From positions 1 to 45,373 of IMG/VR virus record IMGVR_UViG_3300028428_000084: a stretch of 45,373 nt of DNA; one strand, written 5' to 3'. Under the pieces are notes generated by a model that was not told where the DNA came from, ran no database searches, and saw only the letters and a list, made by a program, of their open reading frames with translations. Made by a program: the position numbers and the translations under genes. The stretch is from a virus. Position 1 is the stretch's first letter. Each line of letters starts with the position of its first letter. Of the stretch, positions 4,931 through 25,606 are shown one piece after another.

Positions 4931-5038
4931 CTATTTTTGTGGTTGTGTGTGTTTTTTGTAAGTCCAGACCCAATCACTTCTCCAGAAACGGGGTCTAGAC
5001 TTATGCCCGTATATCCACTCGTCATACTTGTAGTTCAT
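4931..5038 (-). CDS. 35-aa Trp/Tyr/Arg-rich small protein
   Basis: A short frame, missed by length filters, encodes MNYKYDEWIYGHKS, then RPRFWRSDWVWTYKK and ends in HTQPQK. It is rich in aromatic and basic residues. The start overlaps the endonuclease stop (TAATG), and AGGAG lies 8 bases upstream inside the endonuclease gene, so it is probably translated by reinitiation. Function is unknown; the basic aromatic character would suit nucleic-acid or protein binding at the replication complex, being sandwiched between endonuclease and polymerase. Confidence 0.55.
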   Translation of the reverse strand: MNYKYDEWIYGHKSRPRFWRSDWVWTYKKHTQPQK

Positions 5039-5499: not shown

Positions 5500-7114
5500 T
5501 GTTTGTATCTCCTGTCGTTGTTGTTGTCACAAAGCAACCTGTTTTAGGTATGTAAGTTAACTCACATTCACCTAGCTTACCTGTCGCCCTTTGTTTCACA
5601 ATTCTGATAGTTATTGTCTGGTCATCGTTTTGTACGTCTCTAGCTAAAGATATGACATTGTGTGAGAACCGTTCAATACTACCAGAACCAAAACCGTCGA
5701 ACATTGAAGGGGCTAGTTTTCTGTCTTTGCTCTCACGTCTCTTAGTGTGAGACACCACCAATGAATGATGACCAAACTCTTTACTGAGTTGTAGCATGGT
5801 AGATAGTGTCTGAGACAGTCTTGTAGCTACCTGTGCATCATCAGCGCAAGCCGCCGTTATATTGTCTAATACGACCAATTCTGTTCCATCTGCCCTCACT
5901 GAGTATTCAATGAGTGTCCGTAGCTCATCTACAGACACTGCACCGTTTATGGTACTAACCCGTGCGTACTGAGACACCCTTTCTGCCAAGTCTTTAGCCT
6001 GACTATCAGTCACTTTACTCTCACCTAGACACCCTATAATAGGACGACCTAGAAGCATCCCTGCTACCTTCGTGACCCATTCTCTTGGTGTTTCCTCTAA
6101 CGCCAGTATAAGTACCTGTTTCTTCTGTTGGATAAGGTTCTTAACTATCCATCGGACAGCCGATGACTTACCAACTGAGGGGTCAGCGAACACTGTAGTC
6201 AGTTCACTCTTTCTCAAGGTGAATAATTTGTCAAGGTCTGGGATACCAGTAAGCCCAATGCCCTCATATACACTGGACTTACCTGACATTTCCTCTAGTA
6301 ACCAGTTAGTTACTTGTTCCTGACTTACAATTCCATCATAGTCAGCCTGTTTAGCCTTCTCAAAGTCAGCCTTAAATAGTCTTGAAGCTTCTAGGTTATC
6401 AGTGTGCTGAGTTAGGTACTCATTAGCGTCCTTGTACTGTAACTGTACTCGATAAGCTTGACCCTTCCTGATAATAGACATGACTGCATCGGTAGCGGTC
6501 TCACCTGCCGAGTCATTGTCGAAACACAAATAAATACACTTGAAAGTTTCAACAAACTTAAGGTGCTTCTTAATGAAGTCCTTTGCAGAACCTGCCCCGT
6601 TGGGAACTGAGACAACCGTGTACTCACTACCGAGCATTTGTCTCGCCGCTAGTGCGTCAAACTCGCCCTCAGTTATCACAAGCTTTGTACGCTTACTTGT
6701 GACTGTATTGAACCCGAAAAACTGAACACTCTTATTATCCCCTTCCCAGTAGAACTTCTTTTCAAGGGCATTACGCACCTTCCGAGCTACGGGTTGTCCT
6801 TCCCCGTTGTAATAGGGGAAGACATACTCACTGTGTTCAGCGTCAACCATCACCCCGTATTCTTTACAGACAGTCTTAGTCAGGTTTCTTTTAGCTAAGG
6901 CTTTACACTCTAATTCACGGGGTTCAAAGACCGTTGGCTTAGGTTCTATTCCCCGTATAGCGGCTTCATCACTTAGACTATTGGTACAATTTGGTGTGTA
7001 GCAATGGTGACTGGTTACACCATAGTCTGTGAGACGGTACTTTACCAAATTATCCTTAGAACCACAACTAGGGCATGGAAAATGTCCTATTATTTCTTTG
7101 TTGTACTCAACCAT
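5156..7114 (-). CDS. Primase-helicase (T7 gp4-like)
   Basis: 652 aa by the open frame. Domain order: N-terminal zinc-binding primase (CPSCGSKDN and CYTPNC), TOPRIM (VITEGEFDALAA; LCFDNDSAGE), then a RecA-like hexameric helicase with Walker A ADPSVGKSS (about residue 315) and Walker B ELVVLDNI. It unwinds the fork and makes primers for the family A polymerase. Helicase similarity ends near residue 535 (YIPKTGCF). The remaining ~114 residues lie wholly over the endonuclease gene in another frame and do not look like a helicase tail. A conserved 22-bp element lies 50-70 bases upstream of the start. Confidence 0.92.
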   Translation of the reverse strand: MVEYNKEIIGHFPCPSCGSKDNLVKYRLTDYGVTSHHCYTPNCTNSLSDEAAIRGIEPKPTVFEPRELECKALAKRNLTKTVCKEYGVMVDAEHSEYVFPYYNGEGQPVARKVRNALEKKFYWEGDNKSVQFFGFNTVTSKRTKLVITEGEFDALAARQMLGSEYTVVSVPNGAGSAKDFIKKHLKFVETFKCIYLCFDNDSAGETATDAVMSIIRKGQAYRVQLQYKDANEYLTQHTDNLEASRLFKADFEKAKQADYDGIVSQEQVTNWLLEEMSGKSSVYEGIGLTGIPDLDKLFTLRKSELTTVFADPSVGKSSAVRWIVKNLIQQKKQVLILALEETPREWVTKVAGMLLGRPIIGCLGESKVTDSQAKDLAERVSQYARVSTINGAVSVDELRTLIEYSVRADGTELVVLDNITAACADDAQVATRLSQTLSTMLQLSKEFGHHSLVVSHTKRRESKDRKLAPSMFDGFGSGSIERFSHNVISLARDVQNDDQTITIRIVKQRATGKLGECELTYIPKTGCFVTTTTTGDTNNDSTNNEQIRLESRRQVPHKEPNVNSVETASEDIHCDVGKNDDPRLCDNGQGTSDIHRVQGVSETGMGREDGSFRHFRQTTFKGVSSFSKTYCKPFNGADYWGMVEQTRLYLDD

Positions 7115-8353: not shown

Positions 8354-8668
8354 TTACAACCCGTAGTTAGGATGGTCTAAGTATTTGAGGTTAAGAGGTG
8401 CTGAGTGTACCCGTTGGGATGAACCCCCTGCTCGTTTAGGTGGTAAGGACTTCATACTTCCATCCTCAACCATTTTTGCAAAGACACTATCCATTATAGA
8501 GTCCATTATGTTACGTTGTTCTGGAGTAAGTCCATCTTGATAAGGCAACTCAGGTAGGTTTAGTAACTCTTGAATCTCTTTGCTAGAATAAGTCTTCGTC
8601 GGGTTCACCAATTCCATCATCCGTTGTTGGTTCGCTTGTCTGTTCCGTATTCTGGTGTAGTTGTCCAT
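8354..8668 (-). CDS. Hypothetical small protein
   Basis: About 104 aa from the ATG at 8668, chosen because AGAGG lies 9 bases upstream. It overlaps the 3' end of the ParB-like gene by 86 bases; other in-frame ATGs lie at 8713 and 8620. The N-terminus is basic (TRIRNRQANQQRMME), a TYSSKEIQELLNLPELP stretch could be a short helix-turn motif, and the C-terminus has KRAGGSSQ. It might be a transcriptional or partner-binding protein. No known family is recognised. Confidence 0.6.
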   Translation of the reverse strand: MDNYTRIRNRQANQQRMMELVNPTKTYSSKEIQELLNLPELPYQDGLTPEQRNIMDSIMDSVFAKMVEDGSMKSLPPKRAGGSSQRVHSAPLNLKYLDHPNYGL

Positions 8669-9656
8669 TTTCCTGTACCTCTGTGTCTTGTTGTTGTGTG
8701 TCTTGTTGTTCAACTGTAACGGTAACGGTAGGTTTCAAAGACCCTACATTGTCTCTTAAGTTAAGTAGGTCTGTTACGTCTATGTTTTCAAAGACTTCCT
8801 TACCTACAGAAGTGGCATAACGGGCTATGTTAGATTGGCTAGTCGTTTTTAGGATACCTGCAAGAGATGAAACAAACAGCTTTCCAACTGTAGTTAAGAC
8901 ATCTACATCAGAGAACCAAGACAGCATCCCTTTATGTTTAGTAGAGAGGCGTTTAAGGAATGAGCGGGCTACGCTGGCTATAGTGTTACGTTGCAAGCCT
9001 AGCTTCTCAGCTACCGAAGGACTAGCTACCGTTAAGATGAAAGCTTCTTTAGCGTGTTTGGTTGAGTCAACGCTATTAGCTAACGATTTGAAGTCCTGAG
9101 TGTCTATCTGCTGGCTCTGTTTTGTGACGTTAAGCTTCTCAGTAGGGGTCATGGTGCGACTACCATTAGCGGCAAGCACTGCCAATGCCGCATCTTCCCA
9201 TGTTAGATGATAGGACACAGTGACGGGTACCATTACATCTTTGGGGTCAATACCGTTTGCATATGCCCATGTTAGAAGACCAGTAATACGGTGGCGACCA
9301 GACACTGTGAATATAAACTCATTGTCTGTCTCATCCTCTGTAACTTCGGGTAAGTCCTCTTGGCAGTCAACGTCAGCATCTGAATAGACTACACCAACCT
9401 CAATAGGTGTGAGGATTTTACCAATAACTAGAACACCAATCTGAGGGTCTAGTAAGAAGTTCAAGGCTTTCTTGGGGTTAATCTCAAACTGGTTTAGTAG
9501 TCCATCACCTAATGCTAGGTAAGACAACCGTTCGAGACTTAGCTGTTTATGGAACCGTAAGTTGTCACTGATACCAAAGCTTAGTACAGCTTTAAGCTTG
9601 TTAACCACGGTCGGGGTTAGAGCATTGGCTTGGAGTCGTGTGTATTGAGTAGTCAT
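8583..9656 (-). CDS. ParB/Srx-like protein with acidic C-terminal tail
   Basis: 357 aa. FTVSGRHRITGLLTWAYA matches the GxxRxxA phosphate/CTP-binding motif of the ParB/sulfiredoxin fold (about residues 117-134), followed by VPVTVSYHLTWEDAALAVLAANG and RTMTPTEKLN, as in ParB-like proteins where a helix-turn-helix follows. The middle is helical. The last ~60 residues are Gln/Thr/Glu-rich and end in GEPDEDLF, resembling the acidic hydrophobic tip of ssDNA-binding proteins. Phage ParB-like proteins act as DNA-binding regulators, nucleases or partition-type clamps; which applies here is not clear. AGAGG precedes the ATG. Confidence 0.7.
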   Translation of the reverse strand: MTTQYTRLQANALTPTVVNKLKAVLSFGISDNLRFHKQLSLERLSYLALGDGLLNQFEINPKKALNFLLDPQIGVLVIGKILTPIEVGVVYSDADVDCQEDLPEVTEDETDNEFIFTVSGRHRITGLLTWAYANGIDPKDVMVPVTVSYHLTWEDAALAVLAANGSRTMTPTEKLNVTKQSQQIDTQDFKSLANSVDSTKHAKEAFILTVASPSVAEKLGLQRNTIASVARSFLKRLSTKHKGMLSWFSDVDVLTTVGKLFVSSLAGILKTTSQSNIARYATSVGKEVFENIDVTDLLNLRDNVGSLKPTVTVTVEQQDTQQQDTEVQENGQLHQNTEQTSEPTTDDGIGEPDEDLF

Positions 9657-9710
9657 GGTATCCTCTTTGTGGTTGTCTGTAGAAAAATGACACGTAGTGT
9701 AGCAAAGACC

Positions 9711-9929
9711 TTAAGACTTTTCCCCCTCAGTGACTAGCTGACTAGCCAAATTGTAATAAGGCATTACGCTAGGGTGAGTATAGTGGTCATCCAGGGTGTG
9801 CGACGACTCAAGGTTACACAAAACCGTTGAGTTCTCGTATATTGTGAAGCTACCATTAGCTTCATAAATACCAGTGTACTCGACTCGGTTACCTGAATAG
9901 TAACCATCGAGAAGTTTAGCATAGAACAT
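9711..9929 (-). CDS. Hypothetical 72-aa protein
   Basis: 72 aa, Tyr-rich (YAKLLDGYYSGNRVEYTGIY), probably beta-rich; no motif recognised. The ATG follows an AC-type leader and the conserved hairpin element at 9968-10006. It belongs to a run of small leftward genes of unknown role at the upstream part of the early unit, typically host-takeover genes. Confidence 0.6.
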   Translation of the reverse strand: MFYAKLLDGYYSGNRVEYTGIYEANGSFTIYENSTVLCNLESSHTLDDHYTHPSVMPYYNLASQLVTEGEKS

Positions 9930-9967
9930 TGTGTTTATCTACCTAGAGTCATCTAGAAAAATTAAAG

Positions 9968-10006
9968 ACTCTATTCGGATAAGTTTTAAGCTTATCCGGT
10001 ACAGTC
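9968..10006 (-). repeat. Intergenic hairpin element, copy A
   Basis: Plus strand: ACTCTATT, then CGGATAAG, 7-base loop, CTTATCCG, then GTACAGTC. The 8-bp stem is perfect. It follows the 46-aa gene's stop by 5 bases in the direction of transcription. Three other copies (B, C, D) share the flanks (ACTCTA and TACAAT-like) but have different, equally paired stems. The outer GACT/AGTC can also pair. Confidence 0.7.
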
Positions 10007-10011
10007 TCTCT

Positions 10012-10152
10012 TTAGTAATGCCAATAACCCCAATGAGCGGCAAACTTAATGTCTTGGGGATTGACATTAAACTCTAAGGCTTTCTTTACTATGTTAGTGT
10101 AGAACCGACTGTAATGTCTGTACCCAAACTCGTCTCTAAAGTAGTACATCAT
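10012..10152 (-). CDS. 46-aa Tyr-rich small protein
   Basis: A short frame with the strong ribosome site TTAGGAGGTGTTCC before ATG at 10152; a second ATG follows directly. It reads MMYYFRDEFGYRHYSRFYTN, then IVKKALEFNVNPQDIKFAA and ends HWGYWHY. It is basic and aromatic with no known family. It sits 10 bases after the endonuclease VII stop and is followed by hairpin element A. The strong ribosome site makes it a credible gene. Confidence 0.7.
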   Translation of the reverse strand: MMYYFRDEFGYRHYSRFYTNIVKKALEFNVNPQDIKFAAHWGYWHY

Positions 10153-10162
10153 GGAACACCTC

Positions 10163-10462
10163 CTAAGAATATTCCTCGTAATATTTAACTAAGGTAGCTG
10201 TACCTACCATATCTACATAGGCTAGGCTCATGTTACAGTTGTGACAAATAACCCCTCGTGTTTTCCCAGTCTTATGTGAGTGGTCTTGAACCTTACGTTG
10301 TCTCCCTGTAGGTTCAAACGGACGACCACAAATTACACAGTGAGAAGCTGAGTTATACGCTTCAAAGTCACCGTCAGGGTATCTCAAGTTATAAACACGC
10401 CGACGATGATAGTCAGGGTCACTTAGCTTTCTAGCTTCATAAGCTTCTTTGTTGTAAGACAT
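10163..10462 (-). CDS. Recombination endonuclease VII family protein
   Basis: 99 aa. The family signature is plain: CVICGRPF, then VQDHSHKTGKTRGVICHNC and NMSLAY, that is, two CxxC zinc knuckles around the DHxHxTGxxRG His-Asn-metal core of T4 endonuclease VII. Such enzymes cut Holliday junctions, or act as HNH-like nicking or homing nucleases. The ATG overlaps the preceding stop (TAATG), and AAGGAGGT is an ideal ribosome site. It is the second potential junction nuclease in this genome, besides the T7-type enzyme at 5038-5499. Confidence 0.88.
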   Translation of the reverse strand: MSYNKEAYEARKLSDPDYHRRRVYNLRYPDGDFEAYNSASHCVICGRPFEPTGRQRKVQDHSHKTGKTRGVICHNCNMSLAYVDMVGTATLVKYYEEYS

Positions 10463-10674
10463 TATACCTCCTTACCAGATACTAACCAGAGACCTATTGT
10501 GTGGTACTTCCAGTTATCAGGGTGGAACTTTGTACGACCCTCAGAGTCACTCAAAGATACGCTTGATGCTAAGATATACACGTCTCCGAGATAGGTAAGC
10601 TTTACCCAAGAGTCACTGAGGACTACAACAGTTCCTATCTCTGCACTATCCCAAGACTGACGAATAATTTTCAT
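10462..10674 (-). CDS. Hypothetical 70-aa protein
   Basis: About 70 aa from the ATG at 10674, chosen over an upstream in-frame start because GGGGAG precedes it and it leaves a normal gap after the preceding gene. It reads MKIIRQSWDSAEIGTVVVLS and is predicted beta-rich (a small SH3-like barrel is possible), with IGLWLVSGKEV at the end. No known family. Translationally coupled to endonuclease VII. Confidence 0.6.
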   Translation of the reverse strand: MKIIRQSWDSAEIGTVVVLSDSWVKLTYLGDVYILASSVSLSDSEGRTKFHPDNWKYHTIGLWLVSGKEV

Positions 10675-10705
10675 GTCATTATATCTCCCCGTTGGTTGTT
10701 GTATG

Positions 10706-10987
10706 TTAGAACTCAATGAACGAAGGACACCAGTCAGCCTGTTTGGTATGGGTAACAGGTTCTAGTTGGTTTCCTTGTTTACTTGACGTTAAGGTAATTA
10801 CTTCCCCACCATTGTAGATAGTACGGTTAGCATCTTGTTCATGGAACAGGGGAGACAGAGTGTAACACCAACCATCCTTAATAATTGTGGTGTGGTTAAG
10901 GTCATCATTCATCTCTACCCAACGTCCTAAGCTTACTGGTAAGTTACTAAGCTTAATTTTAGACTCAACACTATAAGTATTAGGCAT
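10706..10987 (-). CDS. Hypothetical 93-aa protein
   Basis: Start at ATG 10987 (MPNTYSVESKIKLSNLPVS), with AAAGGTAAACACA upstream; the frame stays open further upstream but only through the AC repeat and hairpin B. Contains WVEMNDDLNHTTIIKDGWC and a C-terminal WCPSFIEF. Likely a small beta protein. Function unknown. Confidence 0.6.
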   Translation of the reverse strand: MPNTYSVESKIKLSNLPVSLGRWVEMNDDLNHTTIIKDGWCYTLSPLFHEQDANRTIYNGGEVITLTSSKQGNQLEPVTHTKQADWCPSFIEF

Positions 10988-11031
10988 TGTGTTTACCTTT
11001 GTTGTGTGTGTGTGTGTTAGAGTTGTTTTAA

Positions 11032-11070
11032 ACTCTAGCCTGCCTACCCGATAAGTAAGCAGGTACAATT
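11032..11070 (-). repeat. Intergenic hairpin element, copy B
   Basis: Plus strand: ACTCTAG, stem CCTGC-C-TAC with GTA-A-GCAGG (one mismatch), 7-base loop, then TACAATT. It begins 3 bases after the stop of the upstream gene (11074) and precedes the (AC)n leader of the next gene. Same flanks as copies A, C and D, different stem sequence. Confidence 0.65.
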
Positions 11071-11073
11071 TAA

Positions 11074-11358
11074 TTACCCTACTATAGACCAATGGTCTTT
11101 CCGACTACTGAAAGTTCCACCTAAGACATAGTGCAGACACTCGTCTAGAGACTTTAAGCTTCTCGTTGGTGTGTTATCCCCATAGACCTGCCAGCTACCA
11201 TCACCATCTTTATATTCAATGGTGGCATCATGCTGTCTGTAAGCATTAGGGTCATCGTCAACGTGGTAGAACGTAACACCATGATAAGCTAGAGTCTGTT
11301 CATCGTAACGGGTATTGGTTCTGGGATACCAAAGTCTTAGGTTAGTTGAAGTAAACAT
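11074..11358 (-). CDS. Hypothetical 94-aa protein
   Basis: 94 aa: MFTSTNLRLWYPRTNTRY, then DGSWQVYGDNTPTRSLKSLD and a Gly/Ser/Arg end. It has a mixed alpha/beta look with no known motif. The leader has AGGAG followed by an ACACACACAC tract before the ATG. Member of the small early gene cluster. Confidence 0.6.
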   Translation of the reverse strand: MFTSTNLRLWYPRTNTRYDEQTLAYHGVTFYHVDDDPNAYRQHDATIEYKDGDGSWQVYGDNTPTRSLKSLDECLHYVLGGTFSSRKDHWSIVG

Positions 11359-11409
11359 AGTGTGTGTGTGTCTCCTATTGTTGATAAGTTTGTGGTGTTG
11401 TCTGTCTGT

Positions 11410-11691
11410 CTAAGCTTTGATGAGAAGGGCTAGGTATTCTTCTCGTTCAAAGGCTTCCCCTCTTTTAATACCGTAGCCAGTACACTCGTTACAGTAAGCT
11501 TTGTGGTTTAGCCAACCATCATAGACTGATATCTCACGACGGTTTACCCGTTCGGCATTATGGTACATTAACTGATAAGCCCAAGTTGCTAACTTTTCTG
11601 CCCGGTGTTTGTTACCAGTGACCACAGAGTCTTTGAGGATACGCTCAAAGTTACGTCTGTTGTCTTCTATCTGACCGTTGTATTCTAACAT
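11410..11691 (-). CDS. Hypothetical 93-aa protein with a CxxCxGxG motif
   Basis: 93 aa. Helical N-terminal half (NRRNFERILKDSVV, HRAEKLATWAYQLMYHNAER), then AYCNECTGYGIKRGEAF. The latter is half of a DnaJ-type CxxCxGxG zinc finger, common in small phage and cyanobacterial proteins. GGGAGAG precedes the ATG. It lies after hairpin element C. A nucleic-acid or protein adaptor role is possible; nothing firmer can be said. Confidence 0.6.
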   Translation of the reverse strand: MLEYNGQIEDNRRNFERILKDSVVTGNKHRAEKLATWAYQLMYHNAERVNRREISVYDGWLNHKAYCNECTGYGIKRGEAFEREEYLALLIKA

Positions 11692-11741
11692 AGTGTGTAT
11701 CTCTCCCTAATAGGTGTGTTTCTGTAGAGTTAGTATGATAA

Positions 11742-11786
11742 ACTCTATTCAGTCAGCACAGGATAAGCTTGCTGACTGATACAATT
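11742..11786 (-). repeat. Intergenic hairpin element, copy C
   Basis: Plus strand: ACTCTAT, perfect 9-bp stem TCAGTCAGC / GCTGACTGA with a 13-base loop containing AAGCTT, then TACAATT. It lies 7 bases after the stop of the 127-aa gene. Strongest stem of the four copies. Confidence 0.7.
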
Positions 11787-11793
11787 CATCAAC

Positions 11794-12177
11794 TTACAAC
11801 CGGATACAGTTACCTGTCTCTAGTTCATAGACAGCTAATTGGTTGTGCTCTTTTCCGAGTGCCAAAGCCTCATCTTTTGTCTCAACCCATTGGCTAAGGT
11901 CAAAGTAGAAGGTGTCATCCTCTGATTTAAACCATGCCCCTAAGTATTTATTGGTTTTTACAGATAACTCAGCACGGACTTTAATGAAGTGTTTAGCCCA
12001 ATGCTTATCGGTACACTCAGAAGCCGGTACTTTGTACTCGTAATTAGGTAAGCTTACTAGGTATCCTTTAGTGTGTTTGATACCGTGAGTATAACCACCC
12101 ATGTCTTTAATTTGTTGAACAGTAGGTAGGGTAGTTCCATCGTTCCAGTATTCGGCTGTGTTTTTATTGTTAGACAT
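11794..12177 (-). CDS. Hypothetical 127-aa protein
   Basis: 127 aa, no known family. Contains YTHGIKHTKGYLVSLPNYEY and LGAWFKSEDDTFYFDLSQWV, suggesting an alpha/beta fold with exposed aromatics. Ribosome site GAGGTTACT after an (AC)n tract. Flanked by hairpin elements D (upstream) and C (downstream). Confidence 0.65.
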   Translation of the reverse strand: MSNNKNTAEYWNDGTTLPTVQQIKDMGGYTHGIKHTKGYLVSLPNYEYKVPASECTDKHWAKHFIKVRAELSVKTNKYLGAWFKSEDDTFYFDLSQWVETKDEALALGKEHNQLAVYELETGNCIRL

Positions 12178-12216
12178 AGTAACCTCAGTGTGTGTGTGTT
12201 GTTTAGTAGAGCCTAG

Positions 12217-12253
12217 ACTCTATCAGGTAAGCCCTTAAGCTTACCCGTACAAT
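12217..12253 (-). repeat. Intergenic hairpin element, copy D
   Basis: Plus strand: ACTCTAT, stem GGTAAGC / GCTTACC with a 6-base loop, then GTACAAT. It touches the stop codon of the 116-aa gene (12254). Same arrangement as copies A-C: stop, TTGTAC-type flank, hairpin, TAGAGT flank, AC-rich leader, next gene. Confidence 0.7.
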
Positions 12254-12604
12254 CTAGTTGAAGTAGTCGAACGGATTTTCTAGCATAAGCTCACCGTCTT
12301 TATACCAGTCCTCGTTGTCTAGTGAGTAACAGGGTTTATTTGGTCTTGATTCCTCAGACCACACCATCTCTTGTATATACCATCCGTACTCAGTACAGCA
12401 AACAAACACCAGTGATTCATCTAGGTAGTTCTCGATGTACTCAATTACATCGGTTTCTGTACCACGTTCACTATCTATAAACTCTTGGGATATAGGAGTT
12501 AACCAACCAGTACGCTTAGGACAATTGTGAGCGTACCTGCTATCCGTGACATCGTTTCTGTACTTCTCAGCCTTTTTCAGTAAGTCTTGTGGACTGTAGT
12601 TCAT
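12254..12604 (-). CDS. First gene of the leftward early unit, hypothetical 116-aa protein
   Basis: 116 aa, acidic (ends in LMLENPFDYFN), with MNYSPQDLLKKAEKYRNDV at the start and FVCCTEYGWYIQEMVW in the middle. No known family. It is the promoter-proximal gene of the leftward unit, about 270 bases from the predicted start of RNA from promoter P1, so it is probably among the first proteins made. GAGGTTATT precedes the ATG, downstream of an (AC)6 tract. Confidence 0.65.
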   Translation of the reverse strand: MNYSPQDLLKKAEKYRNDVTDSRYAHNCPKRTGWLTPISQEFIDSERGTETDVIEYIENYLDESLVFVCCTEYGWYIQEMVWSEESRPNKPCYSLDNEDWYKDGELMLENPFDYFN

Positions 12605-12704: not shown

Positions 12705-12836
12705 AAAGTAAACCTGAGAGTCTGGTCAGTAGCTGTCTAGTATAGCGGCTTGCTGAGACATTTATCTCTCTTATGACCATCCTACTGTTTATAGGTCTCA
12801 TTCTACAGGAGCGTCTTTCCGCTTGTTATTCAGTTG

Positions 12837-12866
12837 TCTTTTGTGTGTGTCTCTGTCTTTTCTCTA
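12837..12866 (-). repeat. Inverted repeat, 5' arm at the predicted start of the early RNA
   Basis: Perfect 30-base partner of 12675-12704, separated from it by 132 bases. The -10 box of promoter P1 is at 12874-12879, so the RNA would start at about 12867 and this arm would be its first 30 bases. Confidence 0.85.
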
Positions 12867-12921
12867 CTCTTTCAGTCTAACTAACTTTTTCTGTTTTGTC
12901 AAGCGTTCGTTTGTACTATTT
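12857..12921 (-). repeat. Promoter-bearing direct repeat, copy 1
   Basis: About 65 bases closely matching 13076-13141: both contain TCTCTACTCTTTCAGTCTAA, then a variable stretch, then TTTTGTCAAG and GTTC.TTTGTACT. The conserved blocks are the -35 and -10 boxes, the first transcribed bases and the region just upstream of -35. A weaker third version covers about 13166-13182. Confidence 0.75.
12874..12902 (-). promoter_or_regulatory. Leftward sigma70-type promoter P1
   Basis: On the minus strand: TTGACA (12902-12897), 17-bp spacer, TAGACT (12879-12874). The -35 is perfect and the -10 is 4 of 6. It drives the leftward early unit and would be read by host RNA polymerase. The transcript would start at about 12867. 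Confidence 0.75.
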
Positions 12922-13075
12922 TTTGAGGGTTGACTTTTGGCATTTCTTTTCCTCTAGGAGAGAGTAGTTGGTGGTGAAGTTGAGAGAGGTTTTGTTTTGG
13001 TTCTCGTCATGTAGGTTAATTCTAATTTTAAGCTTACCTAATGCTTTCCCTAACTCGTCTTCTCTTTCTTTACCT

Positions 13076-13141
13076 CTTTTCTCTACTCTTTCAGTCTAAC
13101 CAATGTTTTGGGTTTTGTCAAGGGTTCATTTGTACTTCTTT
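13076..13141 (-). repeat. Promoter-bearing direct repeat, copy 2
   Basis: Second copy of the repeat at 12857-12921. The spacer between -35 and -10 differs in sequence but keeps its length of 17, showing that the boxes are the conserved part. Confidence 0.75.
13093..13121 (-). promoter_or_regulatory. Leftward sigma70-type promoter P2
   Basis: Minus strand TTGACA (13121-13116), 17-bp spacer, TAGACT (13098-13093), followed by GAAAGAGTAGAGAAAAG exactly as at P1. The RNA would include the P1 region as leader. Confidence 0.75.
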
Positions 13142-13176
13142 TTCCTCTGTTCCCTTTTCCTTTCCCTCACTCTTTC

Positions 13177-13182
13177 ACTATA
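13177..13182 (-). promoter_or_regulatory. Possible third leftward promoter P3 (-10 box)
   Basis: Minus strand TATAGT followed by GAAAGAGT, matching the -10/start region of P1 and P2. No good -35 is found at 17 bp, so it would be weak or need an activator. Confidence 0.4.
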
Positions 13183-13209
13183 ACAAGTATTCACTTTTTG
13201 TGGGAGGGT

Positions 13210-13252
13210 AGTGTGACACTTTCCTAACTGTCCTCGTAGTTCTGATGTACTA
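13210..13252 (+). repeat. 43-bp direct repeat, copy 1 (with GTTCTGATGTACTA)
   Basis: Matches 13403-13445 at 36 of 43 positions. The last 26 bases, beginning AACTGTCCTC and ending GATGTACTA, differ at only one position. The 3' part (GTTCyGATGTACTA) recurs alone at 14419 and 14557. Confidence 0.75.
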
Positions 13253-13402
13253 CTTTACTTACCCCCACACGATAAGCCTATGAAGGTGAGGAAATTGTAC
13301 CAATCCCTGTACCAGTGCATCACATACACTCTCATCTCTTTCAAGGAATATTTCTATTCTAGCATATATTTAGGAGGAATGTCAAGAGGGTACATTAGAA
13401 CT

Positions 13403-13445
13403 ACTGTGCCACTTGAGCAACTGTCCTCATAGTTCTGATGTACTA
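13403..13445 (+). repeat. 43-bp direct repeat, copy 2, upstream of the rightward promoter
   Basis: Ends 24 bases before a TATAAT box (13469-13474), that is, at the -35 position, where an activator or repressor binding site would act. Confidence 0.75.
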
Positions 13446-13851: not shown

Positions 13852-13891
13852 AGAGAATATTAAGACTTATAGGCTGAAACCCTTATTCTCT
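13852..13891 (+). other. Hairpin between terminators
   Basis: AGAGAATA pairs perfectly with TATTCTCT across a 24-base loop. There is no U tract, so this is a structural hairpin rather than a terminator. Confidence 0.5.
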
Positions 13892-13913
13892 CGTTGTCTA
13901 GTACAGATATATT

Positions 13914-13946
13914 GTACGGTTTACTCGGTTTACCGTACCTTTTTTT
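13914..13946 (+). terminator. Intrinsic terminator 2
   Basis: GTACGGT / ACCGTAC stem (7 bp, 11-base loop) followed by CC and seven T. Confidence 0.8.
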
Positions 13947-13950
13947 CATC

Positions 13951-14173
13951 GGACACCTCGTCTCTTATGTGTAAGTAGTCTTTAGAATAAAGCGACGAAG
14001 AAGGTCTTAAAACCTTCGAGACGCAACCAAAGAACCACTAACGGAGAATGCCTCCAAAGCATTCGGAGTGATGTAAAGCTACAATACATTCACTCAAGGG
14101 TATAAAAACCCTCTCGTGAATTATAGTACAGAGTATAGAATGTGCGGAAAGGGAAGCTCTATACTCTTTTTTT
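13951..14173 (+). ncRNA. Structured RNA candidate ending in a terminator
   Basis: Consecutive paired segments: CGTCTC (13959) with GAGACG (14018) enclosing GAAGGT / ACCTTC; GAATGC (14046) / GCATTC (14059); GTGATGTA (14068) / TACATTCAC (14085, one bulge); AGGGT (14097) / ACCCT (14108), with an outer TCAC / GTGA that competes with the preceding hairpin; then terminator 3. No open frame of note. It may be a small RNA or the sensing part of an antitermination leader. The 5' end is not defined. Confidence 0.5.
14130..14173 (+). terminator. Intrinsic terminator 3
   Basis: AGAGTATAGA / TCTATACTCT, perfect 10-bp stem with 18-base loop, running straight into a seven-T tract. Confidence 0.85.
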
Positions 14174-24332: not shown

Positions 24333-24707
24333 ATGTTTATGATGAAAGTAACCTCAGAGGTTGCAGATATGCGAGAACTTTCTATGCTGTGCATGGATTG
24401 GGTATCAGGTGTACCGAGAGAGGAGAGAGAAACTAAGTTCCTATTTTATGCACCGAACACAAAGACAGCCTTTATCCATTCTGATATTTGGGACAAAACA
24501 ATTACCAAACTCAGTAAAGCAAACACAGAGGCACTTAACAAAGTTAGCCCTGTGTATGCCGGCTTGGCTAGAGTTGTAGATGATAGCCCTTCAATAACTT
24601 TAAAAACCCTATATGCAGATTTAAACAGTGCCTCTGATGGTAAGGTTTTTACAGATAAGATTGATAACCTTGATGGTTCGTTTACATACCCAGAAGAGGA
24701 ACAATGA
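24333..24707 (+). CDS. Hypothetical minor structural protein
   Basis: About 124 aa from the ATG at 24333 (MFMMKVTSEVADMREL); the open frame reaches further upstream only inside the preceding gene. Contains KFLFYAPNTKTAFIHSDIW and ITLKTLYADLNSASDGKVF. Mixed alpha/beta, no family recognised. It overlaps the following surface-protein gene by 4 bases (ATGA), so it may be a chaperone or base for it. Confidence 0.6.
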   Translation: MFMMKVTSEVADMRELSMLCMDWVSGVPREERETKFLFYAPNTKTAFIHSDIWDKTITKLSKANTEALNKVSPVYAGLARVVDDSPSITLKTLYADLNSASDGKVFTDKIDNLDGSFTYPEEEQ

Positions 24708-25606
24708 GAACCTTGAGAAAAATTGGTGAGCCTGGTATAATTCAAAACACAGCATCCCAGTTACTTCTGGACACCGGGGGTTTAACTGGAGCATTTGGGG
24801 CATACTCCCTAAGAAAACTTAGAAGTGCTTACTCTGGTAACTGTGTACGTGTTAGGAGGGCTGGTGATAATGTAGAGGCTCAAATTGGCTTCTCTAATAA
24901 CTGGATAGATAAGGCTGCTTTAGATGCACATTGTACGACAAATGATGGTTTTGTTGCGGCTTTTTTTGACCAGTCAGGTAACGGGAACAATCTAGCGCAG
25001 CCCAACGCCCCTCTACAGTTTAAAATTTGGAATGGTTCTACACGAGACTGGGTGGCTACAATAGACGGCAGACCTATCATAGCCCCTCTAGTCACTAACG
25101 GGGTTTATGCTCTGACCGTTATCCCAACAGAAACAACAGCTATGTCTATTTGTTGTATAAGTGGGTGTTTTGGCGCAGTAGCTCCTACGTCTGCACTCCG
25201 AACTGTATATGGGGGTGGAGGCTCACTCTCTGGTATTTACTTCCCTAATCGGGGGTATGACCCAGAAGTACATGAAATACAAACTCCTGCTCAAACTGAC
25301 TTTGTTACAGGGGTTGCACCAGCACTAAACACAAGTTACGTCACTGGATGGTCTGCTACCGCCGGTAGTCCTGCCACAACCAGAGTTAGGTTTAACGGGG
25401 TCACACATCTATCTACAGCAGTACCCTACGCAGTAAACGGTTCTCTTGGTGGGATAGTCATAGGTGGTAGTGGAAGGTTTACCAGTGCGAACCACTCATT
25501 CCAAGAGGCTATCTGGTGGCTAAGGGACATTGGTGATGTCGGTCTATCCCTCTATGCTGGTAATTGTCTCTCAAGTTCACAGTACGGGAATGTAAGCTAT
25601 GTCTAG
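24704..25606 (+). CDS. Surface protein with arabinofuranosidase-B-like (jelly-roll) domain
   Basis: 300 aa. GAFGAYSLRKLRSAYSGNCV, VRVRRAGDNVEAQIGF, FVAAFFDQSGNGNNLAQPNA and ATIDGRPIIAP match the concanavalin-like catalytic fold of alpha-L-arabinofuranosidase B as reused in many phage head-fibre and tail proteins. It probably binds or trims surface polysaccharide, relevant for a sheathed or mucilaginous host. The C-terminal part (FTSANHSFQEAIWWLRDIGD) is the usual last strand region. Activity cannot be asserted. It overlaps tail tubular protein A by 8 bases. Confidence 0.75.
   Translation: MRTLRKIGEPGIIQNTASQLLLDTGGLTGAFGAYSLRKLRSAYSGNCVRVRRAGDNVEAQIGFSNNWIDKAALDAHCTTNDGFVAAFFDQSGNGNNLAQPNAPLQFKIWNGSTRDWVATIDGRPIIAPLVTNGVYALTVIPTETTAMSICCISGCFGAVAPTSALRTVYGGGGSLSGIYFPNRGYDPEVHEIQTPAQTDFVTGVAPALNTSYVTGWSATAGSPATTRVRFNGVTHLSTAVPYAVNGSLGGIVIGGSGRFTSANHSFQEAIWWLRDIGDVGLSLYAGNCLSSSQYGNVSYV

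Follow-up and report, generated by a model that had tools for sequence, protein, structure and literature searches.

The window analysed here is the entire 45,373-base record of a virus. Its early and replication genes are read leftward (1-12.6 kb), its packaging and structural genes rightward. Between its capsid and portal proteins and their counterparts in podoviruses that infect filamentous cyanobacteria (Mastigocladus CHP58, Arthronema TR020, Anabaena A-4L, Cyanophage PP, Pf-WMP3 and LPP-1), identity is 28-38%. Most of these podoviruses are placed in the Saffermanviridae; judging from these sequences, the virus is a distant relative of this family. A related viral contig, L004, encodes a primase 79% identical to that of the window, and the contig of a third virus, L069, was picked up by a pattern scan. 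Scanning genome contigs for the primase returned just distant relatives, in other bacteria, and the hairpin region gave no blastn match among phages and plasmids. The phage encodes an ERF recombinase, while most of its early proteins matched no family. A short endonuclease VII-like protein is encoded inside the early gene block (10163-10462), and a protein of the structural region matches the catalytic domain of arabinofuranosidase B (24704-25606; PF09206, E 2.5e-9).

Four hairpins lie between genes of the leftward early operon:

12874..13385, minus strand: three sigma70-like promoters, consensus matches only (TTGACA at 13385, 13121 and 12902)
12254..12604, minus strand: early gene, 116 aa, preceding Element D; no Pfam match
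12213..12257, minus strand: Element D, between genes 12254-12604 and 11794-12177; lower stem CUAGAUU/AGUCUAG, G.G, UA/UA, bulged A, upper stem of 10 bp
11736..11791, minus strand: Element C, between genes 11794-12177 and 11410-11691; lower stem of 9 bp, G.G, UA/UA, bulged A, upper stem of 10 bp plus extra loop pairs
11028..11073, minus strand: Element B, between genes 11074-11358 and 10706-10987; lower stem UUAAAUU/AGUUUAA, G.G, UA/UA, bulged C, upper stem of 11 bp
10706..10987, minus strand: early gene, 93 aa, following Element B; absent from L004
9964..10009, minus strand: Element A, between the 46-aa ORF 10012-10152 and gene 9711-9929; lower stem AGAGACU/AGUCUUU, G.G mismatch, UA/UA, upper stem CGGAUAAG/CUUAUCCG

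Architecture and position of the elements

The initial annotation had placed four hairpins in this region, and all four are indeed there. They follow a common plan, in which a lower stem of 7-9 bp leads through an invariant G.G and U-A pairs to an upper stem of 8-11 bp, most copies also having a 1-nt bulge; the total is about 17-23 bp per element, broken by the G.G and the bulge. Read in the gene sense, the 5' side consists of the lower strand (7-9 nt, ending in AYU), G, UA and the upper hairpin, and the 3' side of a usual 1-base bulge (A or C), UA, G, AGU and the lower strand. The same annotation described ACTCTA and TACAAT as conserved flanks on either side of the stems. Their recurrence holds, but an unpaired, flanking role does not: given the order of the element, the two 'flanks' pair mutually across the invariant G.G, AYU-G-UA with UA-G-AGU in the gene-sense RNA. 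This pairing extends into the lower stem, which itself covaries, and the elements are larger than first described.

The lower stem starts 0-5 nt past the upstream stop codon or takes the stop in, as in window D, in the second L069 copy and, if a 15-codon ORF is real, in L004 A. A placement right after a stop, as originally proposed for all four hairpins, thus applies to A-C, but D differs, its lower stem including the UAG stop of the upstream gene 12254-12604. The positional exception is L004 B, about 20 nt past the stop. The next start codon is found roughly 20-50 nt further on, mostly behind an AC-rich leader. Some early intergenic gaps have no element.

All four elements belong to the operon downstream of the three sigma70-like promoter matches; similar promoters are present in L004 (two) and L069 (three). 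A promoter scan found none inside the elements, the same-strand promoter-like sites lying upstream of the first gene, save a weak one within gene 10163-10462. TTGTA/TAGAGT, considered as a -35/-10 pair, was rejected because of its variable spacing and because in L069 TAGAGT varies in step with its partner. Terminators had been among the roles first suggested for these hairpins, but no U-tract follows them and a terminator scan detected none of the four; Element A has a U-rich stretch, but past the lower stem only. Neither the terminator nor the promoter reading is supported.

Other repeats were noted in the region. The non-coding sequence before the early operon (12856-13252 and 13402-13445) contains repeated promoter-like blocks (69 nt at 87% and 44 nt at 84%), and a 38-nt inverted repeat (12675-12712/12829-12866, 92% complementary, 116 nt spacing) surrounds the presumed start of the early transcript. 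AAGCTT occurs about 13 times in the 2.7 kb at 9577-12242, in genes and hairpins alike, where about one is expected (41 against 13.6 expected in the whole window). A further intercistronic hairpin, without the core motif, lies immediately upstream of the gene for DNA polymerase (4959-5003, minus strand), and was not found in the matching L004 stretch.

Occurrence in the window and in other genomes

Fold z-scores against dinucleotide shuffles were -5.2, -3.7, -6.5 and -4.5 for A, B, C and D, respectively. The flank-gap-flank pattern was seen 6 times in the window against 1.6 expected, and no shuffle got to 6. A paired descriptor gave four matches, each with 7 of 7 pairs formed in the lower stem and 8 or more in the upper; its chance level, at a looser cut-off, is 0.17 per first-order Markov genome. 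Chance would not be expected to produce four elements of this kind in 45 kb. With filters off, a covariance model (R2) returned exactly the four window copies, all on the early gene strand, at 48.7-63.4 bits, scores that arise by construction since the model was built from those very copies. Its sole other match in the window was the reverse strand of Element A (12.7 bits, E 1.4). No Rfam family matched in the window at the gathering threshold.

Seven additional copies were found in two related viral contigs, four in L004 (5052-5100, 5512-5570, 6230-6278 and 7117-7179, all four corresponding places being occupied) and three in L069. Searching relatives, as the initial annotation proposed, has thus produced further copies, whose absence was the first half of what it gave as a refutation. 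The same set of four is present in near-identical contigs from the window's virus. Among eight complete related phage genomes, the model found no copy, and other repeated flanked hairpins never exceeded two to three copies there.

Besides L069, known contigs and one further record, the pattern matches listed were chance-like and were set aside. That record, also from the matches listed, is L184 (IMGVR_UViG_2703719304_000002), a 44-kb low-GC sequence without recognisable kinship to the window virus. It has two strong intergenic hairpins on the minus strand (5829-5883 and 8546-8602), with flanks AAATTGT..TAGAGTTTA, a long lower stem, a G.G, a bulge and upper stems that differ between the two. 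We do not claim homology, since the search pattern imposed part of the likeness and the bulge is placed differently. A scan of 398 Bacillota genomes for the L184-type pattern gave one match, apparently due to chance. L184 also has a gene for an actin-like protein.

Covariation and the selected molecule

In an alignment of the 11 copies (10 distinct, from three viruses) fitted to the model, and so biased towards structure, 96.5% of cells are paired against 74.2% in shuffles, and two-sided changes occur at 12 of the 17 pairs. Covariation scored 0.693, compared with 0.246 in shuffles; none of 500 shuffles scored as high, a count that is not a probability since the shuffles ignore relatedness. When the partner was shifted by one to three columns, every measure of pairing and covariation collapsed. 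A MAFFT alignment of eight copies, not fitted to the model, gave a like picture. At position A, the copies of the window and of L004 have corresponding gene neighbours and very different stems with pairing intact. The original argument that stems which differ yet still pair point to selection on structure is strongly supported by these covariation statistics.

The core is much more conserved than the stems: the G.G mismatch is present in 11 of 11 copies and two stem pairs are invariant. A variant in L069 (12975-13027) has AA/UU instead of UA/UA in the core and retains the G.G and the bulge.

Is the selected molecule RNA or DNA? A U.G wobble is found within the lower stem in 8 of the 10 distinct copies and would be A.C on the other strand, for which reason we take the RNA of the early transcript as the selected molecule. 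From the wobble, the G.G and the strand scores, this RNA, in the mRNA sense, is probably what selection acts on; it may instead act on single-stranded DNA of that sense in a folded form.

Gene-plus-hairpin units

L069 contains two tandem paralogous genes (70% DNA identity), each with a hairpin of its own. The first shares 96% identity with an L004 gene and its trailing hairpin has the L004 loop, and the second is 87% identical to window gene 12254-12604 and is followed by a hairpin that equals window D letter for letter. An extra gene with its own variant hairpin is also present (12778-12972). The hairpin at the B position of L004 is of the D type, being 85.7% identical to L004 D and 61.7% to window B. 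These differences among viruses suggest that a gene and its 3' hairpin tend to move together and that the hairpin type is replaceable at a fixed position. They lend support to the earlier proposal that the elements are boundaries of shuffled cassettes. The view that the hairpins do not stem from recent duplication stands for window A, B, C and D among themselves, but not for the D-type copy at the B position of L004, which indicates that copying or conversion between positions happens. Ordinary homologous recombination is a sufficient cause for the unit changes, since the phage has the ERF recombinase. The L069 gene after the second D hairpin (13866-14030) has opening codons nearly equal to those of window gene 11794-12177 and then diverges, which places a mosaic junction within the start of the gene.

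Likeness to known systems

The early RNase III processing sites of phage T7 (R0.3, R0.5, R1, R1.1 and R1.3) offer a close parallel. Both there and in the window, several related hairpins lie between podovirus early genes behind tandem host promoters (A1-A3 in T7, consensus matches here), and an upper and a lower stem surround an internal irregularity, with partly conserved neighbouring sequence. We folded the T7 intercistronic regions and found repeated hairpins with conserved sequence adjoining the stem. However, the T7 stems resemble each other in sequence whereas those of the window do not, and the T7 sites have larger internal loops and, by eye, other conserved letters. Since the sequences differ, membership of the T7 site family is not claimed, and cleavage is suggested here by analogy only.

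Integron attC sites likewise follow the stop of a cassette gene, keep their structure while their sequence is free and have mismatched or extrahelical bases. The window elements lack the typical R boxes (RYYYAAC/GTTRRRY) at the base, and the evidence favours RNA. No integrase or tyrosine recombinase was recognised among the proteins scanned, which left out the large tail proteins; a host integrase is possible. REP/BIME elements are also repeated extragenic hairpins after genes and can protect mRNA 3' ends. The window, in contrast, has few copies, in one operon, with unconserved stem sequence and no GTAG at the foot, and no RAYT transposase was recognised. The PeSL elements of T4-type phages, which we compared by description, are reportedly intergenic stem-loops tied to modular shuffling of small genes (attributed to Arbiol et al. 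2010). Both they and the window elements are associated with gene insertion, loss or exchange; PeSLs, however, carry an early promoter, which was not found in the window elements, and belong to a different phage group.

Possible function of the hairpins

We tentatively propose, with somewhat less than even confidence, that these intercistronic hairpins mark cutting and/or end protection of the polycistronic early mRNA, most likely via a host RNase III-type enzyme and in the manner of the T7 early sites. This reading draws on their intercistronic placement at stop codons, among the first of the early genes, downstream of tandem sigma70-like promoter matches, as well as on the covariation, the universal G.G, the mRNA-sense wobble and the low score of the lone reverse-strand match. 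The host enzyme would cut the leftward early mRNA at the hairpins, and the fresh ends would be shielded there. While a ribosome sits on the stop codon it would mask the 5' lower strand, leaving the hairpin to fold once the ribosome has gone. With a hairpin at the 3' end of each gene, units could be duplicated, lost or exchanged while their neighbours stay unharmed, which would account for the pattern seen among the three viruses. Cyanobacteria usually have one to three RNase III genes, and two RNase III enzymes of Synechococcus 7002 cleave many E. coli RNase III substrates (PMC10989914). Rho is absent from cyanobacteria, and canonical intrinsic terminators end only 22% of transcription units in Synechococcus elongatus (PMC13289151).

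RNase III reportedly has no conserved target sequence, and some copies of our element have just 17-18 bp, with a mismatch and a bulge, near or below the minimum double-stranded size of 22 nt used in the same study (PMC5371410). The invariant core exceeds the needs reported there, so that a specific RNA-binding protein stays the strongest rival. The core (the G.G, two A-U pairs and the bulged base) would then be a site through which a phage or host protein controls translation or elongation of the early operon, in the manner of an operator or a put/nut site. Proteins are known to recognise purine mismatches next to bulges, as in HIV Rev-RRE, and such a site would fit a core that outconserves its stems and whose L069 variant flips U-A to A-U. 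We nevertheless find it rather unlikely: the searches recognised no RNA-binding protein of the phage (most early proteins, however, lack a family match), and an antitermination site typically acts a single time, close to the promoter, and is rarely repeated along one operon. It is unlikely, too, that we are dealing with a new class of structured RNA, defined by the G.G/bulge core, ending early-operon cassettes, read by a specific protein and reaching beyond this virus group to L184. If the hairpins just blocked 3'-to-5' exonucleases, fixing upstream mRNA 3' ends without being cut themselves, their position directly at stop codons and their free stem sequence would be accounted for, and REP hairpins protect mRNA 3' ends in this way in E. 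coli (PMC13289151). This would leave the invariant core unexplained, however, and transcript ends without U-tracts in S. elongatus are mostly unstructured (PMC13289151), which makes simple end protection quite unlikely.

The differences in gene-plus-hairpin blocks among viruses and the swapped hairpin at the B position of L004 could also be expected of DNA recombination sites, acting as a folded single strand or inverted repeat and moving cassettes in an attC-like or IS200/IS605-like manner. The attC sites, too, are found after stops and conserve structure rather than sequence. But the scan that failed to recognise an integrase recognised no transposase either, loops and flanks have no fixed cut site, and ordinary homologous recombination is enough with ERF present; we judge this very unlikely. 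A translation-linked switch, in which UAGAGUY of the 3' arm pairs with either the 5' lower strand or a downstream ACUCUA box, appears highly improbable. A RACUCUA box, the 7-nt perfect complement of UAGAGUY, does follow A, B, C and L004 C, D-type copies have GCUCUA (5-6 bp), and the L069 variant has changes in arm and box alike, with pairing retained. Yet the alternative fold is mostly about 5-7 kcal/mol worse, and window B and L004 D are the sole copies in which it is at least equal; no box follows L004 A, neither fold hides a ribosome-binding site, and 7-nt runs with G-U allowed arise by chance at 8-12% of places. As a second feature, the downstream box is no more than suggestive.

If the processing reading is true, the elements would be a small, testable RNA motif tying mRNA processing to the modular way in which early genes are gained and lost, in relatives of viruses of filamentous cyanobacteria, where phage mRNA processing has been little studied. 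Mutants and compensatory mutants offer a simple test of the motif, thanks to its invariant G.G and covarying stems.
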